Source: Chrysiogenes arsenatis DSM 11915 (GTDB taxonomy: Bacteria > Chrysiogenota > Chrysiogenetes > Chrysiogenales > Chrysiogenaceae). From it: a stretch of 64,000 nucleotides of DNA. The stretch covers positions 85,348 through 149,347 of the forward strand of contig NZ_AWNK01000007.1 of NCBI RefSeq assembly GCF_000469585.1, read 5' to 3'. The notes under the pieces were generated by a model. It saw only the letters and a program-made list of their open reading frames with translations. It ran no database searches and had not been told where the DNA came from. Made by a program: the position numbers and the translations under genes. How positions within the stretch are numbered: position 1 is the stretch's first letter; the number at the start of each line of letters is the position of its first letter. Of the stretch, positions 57,608 through 64,000 are shown in pieces.

Positions 57608-58924
57608 ATGGAGTGGCGTAAGTGGCTTGGTGCTGTTGTGCTTGTTGGCGTAATGGCTTTACCTGCGTTGTCATCGCTGGAAGAAGCACGAGTGCTTCGA
57701 TCGCAGGGGGAGAATGCGGCAGCATTCGACAAGTATCTGGAGGCTGTTTTTAACGATCCTCTTCATGCAGATGCCAATTTTGAACTCGGTATGGTCGCAA
57801 TGTCTATCGGGCGATATGAAACCGCTGCCGATGCTTTTGAACGGATCTTGATGGCAAATCCCAATTTGCCACGTGTGCGCTTAGAACTTGGTAGAGCCTA
57901 TATGATGCTCGAAAACTATACCCTAGCGCGGTTAGAGTTTGAGCGGGTATTGGAGCAGCGTCCGCCTGACACCGTGAAGCGAAATGTGGAAACGCTGATT
58001 GCGCAGATGGAGCAAGCAGATAAGCGCTATGCATTGCGAGGCCGTTTATCCGTCGGTGGTATGTACGATACGAACGCTAACGTAGCGACATATAACAGTG
58101 AGTTACGGTTAGCCGGCGGGCTAGAGCTTCAAAATACCGGCATGCCCCCCCAGCGTAAATGGGCCGATGTGCAGGCGCTTGATGCAACGCTTCAGCATGA
58201 CTTTGGCCAGCGCGGTGGTGCTGCCATGGAATACAGTGCAGGCGTGACGCGCGTTGGTTATCATAGCAATGCCAGCGAGTATAATGCGGAGATATACTCA
58301 TTTGGCATTACACCCCTGTATGCTTCCGGCGGGAAGCTTTTTCGTTTTGGCTTTCTGCTGGACGAAATCAGAATTGGGCACGACCATTACGCCCGTTACT
58401 ACGGCTTTGCCCCATCTTTGTTGACCCCGCTTAACGATCGCTTGGCGCTTTCAGCCAGTGTTTTATTTCAAAAACGCGATGTGACCGACAATGACTTAAT
58501 GGACAGCACGTACACCGCTTTGGAAGTTGCGCCACGCTATACCCTGCTTGATGGCAAACTGATGCTGCAAATGCGTGGGCGACTTGGTAATAACCATGCA
58601 GAAGCGGCAGAAAACAGCTACCGAATGCGCCAAATTGGTTTTGGCGGTTTTGCAGCGCTCCCGTGGCAGTTAACCGGATCAGCTTTCACCAGCTACACTT
58701 GGAATCGCTATAAAGATAAAATGGCAGTAGCCGCTACTGGAGCACCTCTCTTTGACGAAGCGCGCCGCGATGAGGAATGGCGCTACAATCTAGGTCTAAC
58801 CCGTCGTTTCGACTACGGCATGTCAGCCAGTTTTACCTACACGTGGGTTGATAATCGCTCTAACCTTGATATCTATGACTATGACCGTGAACAGTTCATG
58901 TTCATGCTCAGTAAGGAGTTTTAG
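57608..58924 (+). CDS. TPR plus outer-membrane beta-barrel protein, Slam/DUF560-like
   Basis: 438 residues. A signal peptide (about 1-22) is followed by three to four TPR repeats (about 25-125; FELGMVAMSIGRYETAADAFERIL) and a beta-barrel from about 140 to the end, starting LSVGGMYDTNANVA and ending in KEF. Periplasmic TPR plus barrel is the layout of Slam proteins (DUF560, type XI secretion), which move lipoproteins and TbpB-type barrels to the cell surface. The next gene begins two bases after the stop and encodes a protein with a TbpB-like C-terminus, which supports this. Family call by eye only. Confidence 0.62.
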   Translation: MEWRKWLGAVVLVGVMALPALSSLEEARVLRSQGENAAAFDKYLEAVFNDPLHADANFELGMVAMSIGRYETAADAFERILMANPNLPRVRLELGRAYMMLENYTLARLEFERVLEQRPPDTVKRNVETLIAQMEQADKRYALRGRLSVGGMYDTNANVATYNSELRLAGGLELQNTGMPPQRKWADVQALDATLQHDFGQRGGAAMEYSAGVTRVGYHSNASEYNAEIYSFGITPLYASGGKLFRFGFLLDEIRIGHDHYARYYGFAPSLLTPLNDRLALSASVLFQKRDVTDNDLMDSTYTALEVAPRYTLLDGKLMLQMRGRLGNNHAEAAENSYRMRQIGFGGFAALPWQLTGSAFTSYTWNRYKDKMAVAATGAPLFDEARRDEEWRYNLGLTRRFDYGMSASFTYTWVDNRSNLDIYDYDREQFMFMLSKEF

Positions 58925-58926
58925 TC

Positions 58927-61041
58927 ATGCGAAATGTACGCGCCATTCTCCTGTGCTTTCTCGTTTTCTTTCTCGCCTGTAAAGTCTGGGCGGCGCCAAT
59001 TGGCCGTGTTGCTGCTCTCGAAGGGAGTGCTGAAGCAGTAGCCGCAGACGGAGTGCGTCGTGCACTTGCCATCAAAGGCGATATTTTTCAGAACGATACT
59101 GTTCTCACGCAACAGAATGGTAAAGTGCAATTGATGTTCACAGATAATTCCGTTTTCACCATTGGGCCGAACAGCGAACTGGTCGTTGACACCTTCGTTT
59201 TCGATCCCAATCAAGGGGCGGGAGAGAGCGCCATTCAAGTTACCAAAGGGGCGTTCCGTTTTGTAACAGGAAAAATTGCCCGCAATGACTTTGAAAAAAT
59301 GCGAGTGAATACTCCGACGGCCACCATAGGTATTCGTGGAACGCTCGTAGCGGGCAATCAGATAGATGGCGGAGAATTGCAAGTTGCCCTCCTTGGCGGG
59401 GCTATCGCGGTGGCCTCATCTCAGGGGGCGGTTGAAATAACTACACCTGGGTTTGGTACCTCGGTAACCCCCGGAGCCGCACCGCAAATTCCTACACAGT
59501 GGTCGGCCGAACAACTGAATGCCGTATTGAGTGCCACCGCTTTGGAAGGACAGGAAGGCGGAACACCAGAAGGTGGTGCCGAAGGCGGCGATGCTGCTGA
59601 TGGCGAAAATGCCGATAACCCAACACAGCAGACCGAAGGAGCGCAACAACTGGCCAATCGCGATGCCGTAACAAACAGCGATGGCTTTAAAGAAGCTTTT
59701 AAACGCGAAGCCCTTTTAGAAGGGGGACTTTTTCTGTATCGTGCAGAAAGCACCCCTGAAAAAGCTCAAGGCACCATTATGGGAAGCTCGAATAACTGGG
59801 GGAACTATTTCCTTGCCTTTGATGTTGCCGGATTTGCCGATAACTTAATCTTTAATTCGAATACCTATGTTGCTGGCAGTGGCAACTTCTCCCGCACGCC
59901 GCTGGTATTGCCTGAAACCTTCTTCCGTGGCGATGAGACCATTTCTTTGACCGACGCAACTGCCTATACCGATGGTTTAGGGCAGTTTTTCTGGTTACGC
60001 CAGAACCAAGACGAACTCAAATTTCTTGCTTGGGCAGGCGAAGATCCTAGCAAGACTTACGCTATGGCCGATACTATTCGTGTCTACCATCTCGATGCAA
60101 TAACCATAGGAACCGACGAAAATGAATATGAGAGTGTTATTGTTTTGCTTGATCCCCATACAGGGAAATCCATTGCCATTGCTAAGGCCAATAACGGCTT
60201 TTCAAAAAGCTTTCTAGGTCTTGGCGAGATGCGCGACAGTCAAATCAGTGACGCAGAGATAGACGATGCGGAACGCCGTGTGATTACCCTTGTCCATGAT
60301 GGCTCACTCGGCACTTATACCCTGTATGGTGCGGATCTCCAAGGTATAGGTGGCGGCTACTACGCGTCCACTTTCCAACTCTATGGTGCTGGGTTGTGGG
60401 AGACAGCGCTACATAATGGTAACGATACTATCCTGCATATTTCCCCCGGAGTCTTTACGGCGGGACTATTTGCTTTGGAAAATACTGCGATGCTTAACGC
60501 TTACAGTAAAGCAGCTCCTGAGGTGCTTTCAGAATATCTCACTTGGGGCGCATGGTTGGGCAGTGCACCTGCAGAGGAAGGTAATGTTACTGACTTTCGC
60601 GCACCGTGGATAGCAGGCACCTTGGCTACCCAAGAGGTACTTGCTGGCAAAACTACGGCGGCATATAGCGGCACAGCCTATGGTACAGCAGTTATTGGCG
60701 AAAATATGTATGCGCTTGAAAACATCATGACAACATCTATTGACTTTGCCAGTAAAAATGCCACGACTACGCTAAATAGTGCGAGTACAGGTGAAGGATA
60801 CGGCCACCTTGAGGCGACCTATCAGTCAACCCTGACCGGTGCCGTCCTTGCCGGATCATCCGTAGCCGGTTTATTAGGTGTAAGTGGTGAATCAGCATCA
60901 GCCATCACTGGTGGCGCCTTAAAAGGTGGCATTTACGGCGATGGCAGCGTGATAGGCGGTATTTACCAAGCAACCAGTAGTGCTGGCACGGCCAGTGGCG
61001 TGTTTGGTGGAATGCTAACAACTCCAAATCCTCAAGACTAA
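58927..61041 (+). CDS. FecR-domain secreted protein with TbpB-like C-terminal barrel
   Basis: 704 residues. A signal peptide (about 1-22) is followed by a FecR domain (about 60-160; QLMFTDNSVFTIGPNSELVVD, TPTATIGIRGT), a Gly/Glu/Ala-rich linker (about 205-240), a large middle region of unknown fold, and a C-terminal segment (about 570-704). That segment has YSGTAYGT, SIDFASKNATTTL, and GGIYGDGS...GTASGVFGG, resembling the cargo barrels of TbpB-like proteins. It starts two bases after the Slam-like gene and uses AAGGAG in that gene's end, so it is likely its cargo. The FecR name does not imply iron sensing; there is no sigma factor nearby. Confidence 0.68.
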   Translation: MRNVRAILLCFLVFFLACKVWAAPIGRVAALEGSAEAVAADGVRRALAIKGDIFQNDTVLTQQNGKVQLMFTDNSVFTIGPNSELVVDTFVFDPNQGAGESAIQVTKGAFRFVTGKIARNDFEKMRVNTPTATIGIRGTLVAGNQIDGGELQVALLGGAIAVASSQGAVEITTPGFGTSVTPGAAPQIPTQWSAEQLNAVLSATALEGQEGGTPEGGAEGGDAADGENADNPTQQTEGAQQLANRDAVTNSDGFKEAFKREALLEGGLFLYRAESTPEKAQGTIMGSSNNWGNYFLAFDVAGFADNLIFNSNTYVAGSGNFSRTPLVLPETFFRGDETISLTDATAYTDGLGQFFWLRQNQDELKFLAWAGEDPSKTYAMADTIRVYHLDAITIGTDENEYESVIVLLDPHTGKSIAIAKANNGFSKSFLGLGEMRDSQISDAEIDDAERRVITLVHDGSLGTYTLYGADLQGIGGGYYASTFQLYGAGLWETALHNGNDTILHISPGVFTAGLFALENTAMLNAYSKAAPEVLSEYLTWGAWLGSAPAEEGNVTDFRAPWIAGTLATQEVLAGKTTAAYSGTAYGTAVIGENMYALENIMTTSIDFASKNATTTLNSASTGEGYGHLEATYQSTLTGAVLAGSSVAGLLGVSGESASAITGGALKGGIYGDGSVIGGIYQATSSAGTASGVFGGMLTTPNPQD

Positions 61042-62007: not shown

Positions 62008-64000
62008 ATGCGAATGCCCACTATTTTCCAACAGTCGCGGCCATTGCGGTTACTCATTTTCGTAATGCTATTGTGTTTTCTCAGCACATCATCCGCGTTT
62101 GCTAATCTTATTAGTGACCAGACTGCAACATTGCAGAATATGCTGCGTAATTCCCCCGATCCTACAACCCTTGGCGTTAACCTTGGAGCCTTTGCACAGT
62201 CGGTAGAAGTTGAACGGGCGGCCGCCAGTTTTGATACGAGCGACCGCTTTCGGATAAACCGTGACCTTGGTGATGAAGTTACCTTCCGCGTAACAAGTAT
62301 TAACCGAACAACAGGTGTAGAGAATGTAGTTGCCTTGGGCAACGATGGTGACACTGTCGAGATCTCACCACCCGTAAGATATACTATTTCCTCTAATAAT
62401 ACGCTGACACTTGACACCGACCACCTTACATCAGAGCAACTCTACACGGTGAGTTTTATCCGTGATGGCATCCGTCGGGCACAAATCACATATATTCAAC
62501 CGAACACTAAACCCATTCTGCGGACACAAATCCTCCAAGGTGGGACAACTCCAAATACTGGTGAAACCATACGGGTATTAGGTATGGCGTTTACCCGTCA
62601 GGATGCACTCGGGATTGACGCGGTACAATGGAGTGTTAAAAATAACTCTGGAATTATTGCAAATTTTAATACCACGGCGAAATTGACATCGTTCCGATTT
62701 GATACACCAGATAGCTACACTTTGATGTTTGCAACGACTACTGGCACGATAGATACTATAGAAATCCCTATCACCGTCTATGCCCCGCAACAGCCACGGT
62801 TGATAGCGACTCTTGCCGGAGCACCGACAAAAAAAGGTGATACATTTGAGGTGAATTTTACCGGATTATCGATTGACCCTACGGATTCTGTGGAGCTACA
62901 GTTCATCAAACCAATATTAAATAGCTCTCGAGTGAATTTTTCTGCGGGAAAAATTTCTCATACGGTTGACACCGTTGAGCCGGAATACCTTTTCCGTGCG
63001 GTAGCTATAAAAGCAAATGGATTGCGCGACACCTCGGAAGTATTCCGGATTACCATGCCAGTGCCGCGCGCGTACGCCAAAGCACTGCCAGATGCCGCAG
63101 TCCTGAAAACCGCAGACTCTAACCAAACGTACCAATTACGAGCGCAAACCGCCCGTGTCGACAATGGTACAGCTGTTATTACGTGGAAAGGGCAAGGGGT
63201 ATCTCGCACCGTGAGTGGCTGGCAAGTCAACGTTGGTTCGCTTGCACCGGGAACATATGAATACCAATTAGAAGTTGCTGTTCAGGGGCGAGCTGACATT
63301 GTTGCTCGTGACACCTTCCGCCTTAGCGTTCTTGAATCGGGTGCGCCTCGCGTTACCCTGAGTGCGGCGAATCCCACGCTTTACATCACCGACGGTAGAC
63401 CTGACCTTGGCTTTGTACTCCAAGCCACTGCGATACATGGAACTGCCAATGATAGCGGCGATATTGTCCTGAGTTGGGATTTAAGTCAGCTGAACAATGT
63501 CATTACCGCTAGCCCAAGTGGTTCGCAGGTAACAATTATACCAATTCGCGAGGGTGCGGCGACGATTGCCGTCACTGCGCAAGCTCTAGCAACAGGTAAG
63601 AGCACGACGGTACAGGCTACTGTCAGAGTGCAAGAACGGTATACTGACCGCTCTCGCCCCGTAGCGAATATCGATGCGCCATTTGAAATGCGGGTTATCA
63701 GAGGAACAGCGTTGACCCTGAGCGGAGCGCGCAGTTACGACCCAAACTTGGAGCCGCTCACTTACGCGTGGAATTTGATAGATAGTGCTGGAAATTCGGT
63801 ATCATTAACGAACAACACAGGCACAAGCATTACACTCCCAAGCTCACTCACTGCCGGAACCTACACCCTGCGCCTGACTGTGAATAATGGGAAAACAGGA
63901 GAAAATAGCACCGCTACAACAACTCGCCAAATCATCGTTTTTGAACCGAGTAAGCCAGTTGTGCAGCTCACTGCGCCCGGAACCATCCAGTTGGCAAGTG
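62008..64000 (+). CDS. large exported Ig/PKD-like repeat protein (partial)
   Basis: Open to the window end: at least 664 residues, no stop. A signal peptide (about 1-33; LLCFLSTSSAFA) is followed by several beta-sandwich-like modules. About 450-545 resembles an Ig-like fold and about 548-650 a PKD domain (GTALTLSGARSYDPNLEPLTYAW). Such proteins are surface adhesins or stalk proteins. AAGGAG lies five bases before ATG 62008. It lies 15 bases after the unknown secreted protein, so it likely belongs to the same operon as the Slam/FecR pair. Confidence 0.7.
   Translation, partial: MRMPTIFQQSRPLRLLIFVMLLCFLSTSSAFANLISDQTATLQNMLRNSPDPTTLGVNLGAFAQSVEVERAAASFDTSDRFRINRDLGDEVTFRVTSINRTTGVENVVALGNDGDTVEISPPVRYTISSNNTLTLDTDHLTSEQLYTVSFIRDGIRRAQITYIQPNTKPILRTQILQGGTTPNTGETIRVLGMAFTRQDALGIDAVQWSVKNNSGIIANFNTTAKLTSFRFDTPDSYTLMFATTTGTIDTIEIPITVYAPQQPRLIATLAGAPTKKGDTFEVNFTGLSIDPTDSVELQFIKPILNSSRVNFSAGKISHTVDTVEPEYLFRAVAIKANGLRDTSEVFRITMPVPRAYAKALPDAAVLKTADSNQTYQLRAQTARVDNGTAVITWKGQGVSRTVSGWQVNVGSLAPGTYEYQLEVAVQGRADIVARDTFRLSVLESGAPRVTLSAANPTLYITDGRPDLGFVLQATAIHGTANDSGDIVLSWDLSQLNNVITASPSGSQVTIIPIREGAATIAVTAQALATGKSTTVQATVRVQERYTDRSRPVANIDAPFEMRVIRGTALTLSGARSYDPNLEPLTYAWNLIDSAGNSVSLTNNTGTSITLPSSLTAGTYTLRLTVNNGKTGENSTATTTRQIIVFEPSKPVVQLTAPGTIQLAS

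Follow-up and report, generated by a model that had tools for sequence, protein, structure and literature searches.

A FecR-domain protein with a TbpB-like C-terminal module encoded beside a Slam-like outer-membrane protein in Chrysiogenes arsenatis

Type XI secretion, as it has been described, is a proteobacterial system that exports lipoproteins or free soluble proteins, and two surveys of the system (T11SS) place it in Proteobacteria and make no mention of FecR (PMC12282271, PMC8406197). FecR domains are in turn known to be linked to CHASE2 sensors in a Burkholderia biofilm operon (PMC5192318), and in magnetobacteria a CHASE2-cyclase gene comes after mtxA (PMC4439547, where MtxA is not described as a FecR protein). 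Here, we analyzed a window of 64,000 nucleotides from C. arsenatis DSM 11915, in which a previous sequence-only reading had proposed a Slam-like exporter gene followed by the gene of a FecR-domain protein ending in a TbpB-like barrel.

Gene layout and domain structure

The two open reading frames of the pair, P0001 and P0002, both lie on the plus strand (Table 1), and a spacer of only two bases (58925-58926) separates the stop of the first from the start of the second. The C-terminal motifs YSGTAYGT, SIDFASKN and GTASGVFGG were all found in the translation of P0002, so that the gene layout and the motifs quoted in the sequence-only reading were confirmed. Upstream (5') of P0001 are mreC, mreD and a gene for a PBP2-type transpeptidase. 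Downstream, the genes for a 56-aa lipoprotein, a 244-aa protein and a 2654-aa protein follow on the same strand with spacings of 15-25 bases. The largest of these proteins (L152:6356-14320), which is probably encoded in the same operon, contains repeats of the PKD and InlB-B types and, judged by eye, a PPC-like C-terminal stretch. The 244-aa and 2654-aa proteins were considered as further cargo and rejected, as neither gave a barrel, FecR or exporter match.

Table 1. Features of the P0001-P0002 locus, in positions of the window.
Feature	Position	Strand	Basis
P0001, Slam-like (SlipAM/DUF560) exporter, 438 aa	57608..58924	+	Pfam, family profile, AlphaFold2, fold matches
P0001 TPR helices, residues 21-137	about 57668-58018	+	AlphaFold2
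P0001 14-stranded outer-membrane barrel, residues 141-437	about 58028-58918	+	AlphaFold2
P0002, FecR domain, unique middle and TbpB-like C-terminal module, 704 aa, presumed cargo	58927..61041	+	Pfam, profiles, model
P0002 FecR-type module, residues 21-189 (Pfam match 57-160), right behind the signal peptide	58987..59493	+	Pfam, NCBIfam, AlphaFold2, fold matches
P0002 middle region, residues 206-535, presumed variable effector part	59542..60531	+	no blastp/phmmer match
P0002 presumed export/targeting domain (residues 536-695): WGxW and TbpB-like module, eight strands predicted	60532..61011	+	profiles, model
Small lipoprotein, 56 aa, LAGCGSSGGGG; probably in one transcription unit with P0001-P0002	61062..61232	+	sequence
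Secreted 244-aa protein without Pfam match; probably in one transcription unit with P0001-P0002	61258..61992	+	Pfam search
Secreted 2654-aa PKD/InlB-B-repeat protein, start (continues past the window); possibly co-transcribed	62008..64000	+	Pfam search

P0001 belongs to the SlipAM/DUF560 family and is an outer-membrane protein with TPRs. SlipAM (PF04575) was its best non-TPR family in the Pfam search (E = 9.2e-14; 52.1 bits, cut-off 22), residues 148-438 being aligned to positions 6-288 of the 288 in the profile, and this domain is preceded by TPRs; the DUF560/Slam similarity suggested earlier for the 438-residue protein was thereby borne out. A match to TPR_Slam (2.5e-6; 28.3 bits) stayed below the cut-off of 35.2. 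P0001 is the sole SlipAM match in the genome. A leave-one-out profile of the exporter family, built without P0001, scored it at 289 bits, and the profile of the FecR-linked exporters also picked up Slam proteins located beside classical TbpB-type lipoproteins, most of them at ~90-155 bits.

The AlphaFold2 model of P0001 (pLDDT 86.4) shows helices followed by 14 long strands, and 14 is the number of strands in the Slam barrel. Fold matches of this model in the PDB included the TPR-barrel exporters BcsC and PelB (PelBC) and the 14-strand porin OmpG, while PDB sequence searches with P0001 or its family alignment returned matches in the TPR region only. Some relatives of P0001 match BBP2_2 or DUF2860, either alongside SlipAM or in its place. 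Judged by these similarities, P0001 is likely to be a translocon of the Slam/type XI kind that would export a cargo protein. In a tree of the exporters, the FecR-linked proteins cluster apart from the others (7 changes compared with 23.5 in shuffles); given the number of long or weakly supported branches and the unsure place of P0001, no history was drawn from it.

When P0002 was searched alone, its match to TbpB_B_D (PF01298; residues 577-695) reached 17.4 bits with E = 0.0065 and remained below the cut-off of 26. A leave-one-out profile made from 24 other barrels, with the window protein excluded, gave residues 536-695 a score of 50.3 bits (E = 1.8e-13, calculated for 10,000 sequences), whereas none of 1,000 shuffles exceeded 9.5 bits. 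The proposed TbpB_B_D similarity thus failed for the single protein and held with its relatives, once these were used pointing significantly to homology of the C-terminal module with the TbpB barrel. The module common to the family (alignment A3) starts at a WGxW motif near residue 536, about 35 residues before residue 570, where the barrel had previously been taken to begin. In the PDB, the 23 best matches of the A3 profile were all TbpB, LbpB, NHBA or hemophilin (TbpB 3hol, E = 1.2e-13), and the other, weaker matches up to E = 10 were factor H binding protein entries, so that the list consists entirely of proteins of the T11SS-cargo type. In the AlphaFold2 model the C-terminus of P0002 forms eight strands with a pLDDT of about 40-60, for which Foldseek gave matches to TbpB at E values of 0.02-0.1. 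Of the two structures called for earlier, that of P0001 was accordingly obtained with its 14 strands at a pLDDT of 86, and the eight strands of P0002 only at low confidence. The sequence-only reading had named a lack of DUF560 or TbpB_B_D similarity and a C-terminus other than an eight-stranded barrel as grounds for giving it up; both similarities were found and, at this low confidence, the predicted C-terminus is eight-stranded.

The N-terminal part of P0002 matches FecR (PF04773) with E = 6.2e-14 and 52.7 bits (cut-off 24) and was modeled with a pLDDT of about 85-96 across most residues. It also resembles the LapA retention module of NCBIfam (NF033682; E = 3.4e-7), although the 30.6 bits obtained are below the model cut-off of 50. 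The best fold match was the cell-surface anchoring domain 5ix9 (E = 0.003; 0.8 Å rmsd over 62 columns, 34% identity), a periplasm-retained N-terminal portion of a large ice-binding RTX adhesin, and the second was the signaling domain of PupR (6ovk). LapG-dependent release was ruled out for this genome, which contains no match to LapG (PF06035). The middle region found no blastp or phmmer relative among the proteins of the loci fetched and was left without a confident structure in the AlphaFold2 model, as would be expected for a variable effector part.

A lipobox is absent from 26 of the 28 family members. In P0002, Cys18 lies in a weak lipobox-like pattern and an SPI-like site, VWA|A, is also present; the protein is best read as non-lipidated cargo. 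Since nearly all members lack a lipobox, the FecR domain seems to take the place of the lipid anchor, and not that of the lipoprotein body as had been supposed.

Recurrence of the pair and its variants

FecR-barrel fusions next to DUF560-like proteins form a family that recurs in bacteria only distantly related to one another. At two Campylobacterota loci (L054, L055) a single protein exceeds the Pfam cut-off for FecR as well as that for TbpB_B_D, its gene overlapping that of a TPR outer-membrane protein of the P0001 family, and the L054 protein could be aligned to P0002 across residues 4-693. With the barrel module alone as the query, 25 barrel genes were found in 298 Campylobacterota genomes; 22 of them carry FecR in frame, and an exporter gene lies within 4 kb of 24, the exception (G205) being truncated by the end of its contig. 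Conversely, FecR was present within 4 kb on the same strand at 32 of the 37 exporter genes, and the survey of gene neighbors that had been recommended thus showed that the pairing of FecR with DUF560 recurs. The gaps between FecR and exporter genes were nearly all between -20 and +24 bp at the loci examined whole. The same pair is present in G002 (locus L022), a genome from the family of C. arsenatis.

In 399 Pseudomonadota genomes, the A3 profile, which was built from FecR-fused proteins and is biased toward such matches, mostly found proteins without FecR next to SlipAM, many of them classical lipoproteins. SlipAM was present in 18 of the 20 Pseudomonadota genomes with TbpB-type barrels, and FecR-fused barrels were few (L062, L122, L203).

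Several variants of the arrangement were observed. At L205 and L207 the fusion is split: two neighboring genes after the exporter gene encode a weakly matching FecR protein and the barrel, and it follows that FecR is not necessarily a covalent anchor. One exporter is common to two FecR-barrel paralogues at L104 and L106. Barrel-less FecR proteins occur as well, either as 236-aa FecR-only proteins next to a related outer-membrane protein and a CHASE2 cyclase (L158, L159, L161) or paired with an outer-membrane protein of the P0001 kind (L023, L024, L025, L027), which implies that the barrel is not the sole link to the exporter. At L023 and L024 FecR and the TPR outer-membrane protein are followed by a large lipoprotein (1004-1296 aa, with an Lcl_C domain in L024), and a CHASE2 cyclase adjoins. 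In Elusimicrobiota/Omnitrophota bins (L036, L038, L039, L040), a FecR protein with a short beta-rich tail is encoded 3' of a TPR outer-membrane protein, which matches SlipAM with 37 bits in L039 and DUF2860 in L038; these loci are possibly a further divergent branch.

Possible anchoring and sensing roles and alternative readings

Starting from the homology of the three modules and the pairing, tight coupling and recurrence of the genes, we consider a type XI-like pair the best explanation, with a probability of roughly 0.6: P0001 would be the exporter, P0002 its translationally coupled, dedicated cargo and FecR a periplasmic anchor, the export, orientation and anchoring being what we infer. 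P0002 would reach the periplasm via its cleavable signal peptide and would be recognized by P0001 through the C-terminal TbpB-like barrel. The barrel and the variable middle region would then cross to the cell surface, while the N-terminal FecR domain would fold in the periplasm and retain the protein there. FecR would in this way do the job of the lipid anchor in classical Slam cargo and of the N-terminal retention domain in LapA-type RTX adhesins.

A parallel is provided by FecR domains fused to cadherin/RTX proteins, with an OEP/TolC gene immediately upstream (L057, L060, L066, L067; OEP/TolC identified by Pfam at L057, L060 and L067 and by a local profile at L066). As FecR-RTX proteins lie beside TolC and FecR-barrel proteins beside a Slam-like protein, the exporter follows the C-terminal tag while FecR stays constant, and this swap makes the idea of FecR as an anchor directly testable. 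The likeness of the domain to both the adhesin anchoring domain and the FecR-type signaling domain favors FecR staying in the periplasm. By this analogy P0002 is probably held by a FecR plug, and retention by a protein plug, although we infer it, is the simplest account.

The sequence-only reading had FecR exported too, so that the whole of P0002 would be secreted or displayed on the surface. Such a route has a precedent in the hemophilins, non-lipidated T11SS cargo that crosses the outer membrane as soluble proteins (PMC12282271), and FecR is the N-terminal module, where the effector parts of classical cargo sit. We regard it as quite improbable, however, given the likeness of FecR to domains for adhesin anchoring and periplasmic signaling and its occurrence in TolC-linked RTX proteins with very different exported parts. 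Less probable still, and in our view highly so, is an ordinary TPR outer-membrane channel, be it a BcsC/PelB-like polysaccharide exporter or a general porin, next to an unrelated periplasmic or peptidoglycan-associated FecR protein. BcsC, OmpG and PelBC being among the top fold matches, and BBP2_2 or DUF2860 among the families of some relatives, would agree with such a channel; the full-length SlipAM match and the 14 strands of P0001 do not, no polysaccharide genes were seen among the flanking genes examined, and the barrel module is TbpB-like and tracks the exporter family.

Of the alternatives, a trans-envelope sensor deserves the most weight, unlikely as it appears to us. By analogy with FecA-FecR, the barrel or middle region would sample the exterior, either through the outer-membrane protein or next to it, and FecR would pass the signal to an inner-membrane CHASE2-adenylate cyclase and hence to cAMP. 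Of the 35 listed Campylobacterota exporter loci (34 distinct), 21 have a gene for such a cyclase at a distance of up to 4 kb, often immediately adjacent, and triads of a FecR-only protein, an outer-membrane protein and CHASE2 exist at L158 and L161. The resemblance to the PupR domain and the Burkholderia operon combining LysM-FecR with a CHASE2 kinase (PMC5192318) point in the same direction. CHASE2-adenylate cyclases likewise lie beside FecR genes of the window's phylum and beside the FecR-RTX/TolC loci, where FecR forms a parallel system with type I secretion, and CHASE2 therefore seems to be tied to FecR rather than to one exporter. Against a sensor, CHASE2 is missing from many FecR-barrel pairs; no CHASE2 neighbor was found at the window locus, and this genome has its only CHASE2 gene on a different contig (G000:C1:223106), where no adjacent FecR gene could be found.

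Where the cyclase is present, FecR-barrel, exporter and CHASE2-adenylate cyclase genes can form a compact three-gene cluster in which neighboring genes are about -1 to 11 bp apart (L101, L103, L104, L106, L107, L114). Through this linkage, CHASE2 domains, whose signals are stated to be unknown (PMC5192318), gain a candidate for their ligand. An extension of the anchor reading, tentative and rather doubtful, is that FecR may be a portable periplasmic stop-and-sense module, with a tag matched to the exporter and a head outside, that plugs the protein in the envelope and reports via CHASE2-adenylate cyclases to cAMP. If true, type XI cargo would be anchored in a way that is new, and a pathway shared across phyla would lead from the surface to cAMP.

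Comparison with known systems

Our literature search, which covered mainly the main texts of freely available papers, retrieved no paper that pairs FecR with DUF560, Slam, TbpBBD or T11SS, and FecR-fused T11SS cargo is undescribed in the literature searched. The range of type XI secretion would become wider, and the system would gain an anchoring mode, with a class of FecR-fused, non-lipidated cargo that extends over Campylobacterota, Pseudomonadota and the phylum of the window; such a class would also allow cargo to be predicted for DUF560-like proteins still unassigned.

The FecR and CHASE2 operons, i.e., Burkholderia BiofilmReg and magnetobacterial mtxA, likewise have a gene for a FecR-domain protein (in mtxA, a periplasmic protein) beside a CHASE2 sensor gene (PMC5192318, PMC4439547), whereas a Slam-like exporter or barrel is not described there and the window locus is without a CHASE2 neighbor. 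With the cell-surface signaling regulators FecR and PupR, P0002 shares the FecR fold (6ovk); it differs from them in its signal peptide, in having no anti-sigma part that could be seen and in its fusion to a putative export barrel. RTX adhesins of the LapA/MpAFP type, secreted by T1SS and TolC, have an anchoring domain to which the N-terminal FecR-like domain shows some resemblance (5ix9, NF033682), and several FecR-RTX proteins adjoin TolC. P0002, in contrast, ends in a TbpB-like module and has a Slam-like partner, and the genome contains no LapG. The closest likeness by sequence is to type XI secretion, for both of whose partners P0001 and P0002 show the expected sequence features. As for Slam/DUF560 proteins and their cargo (TbpB, LbpB, hemophilin, NilC and Pls-like proteins), the gene of a TPR and 14-strand outer-membrane protein adjoins that of a candidate cargo with a variable part followed by a TbpB-like module with a predicted eight-strand barrel. 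The differences would lie in anchor and range: cargo of the P0002 type carries a FecR domain and apparently no lipid anchor, and the pair also occurs outside Pseudomonadota, in the window's phylum, in Campylobacterota and possibly in Omnitrophota/Elusimicrobiota.
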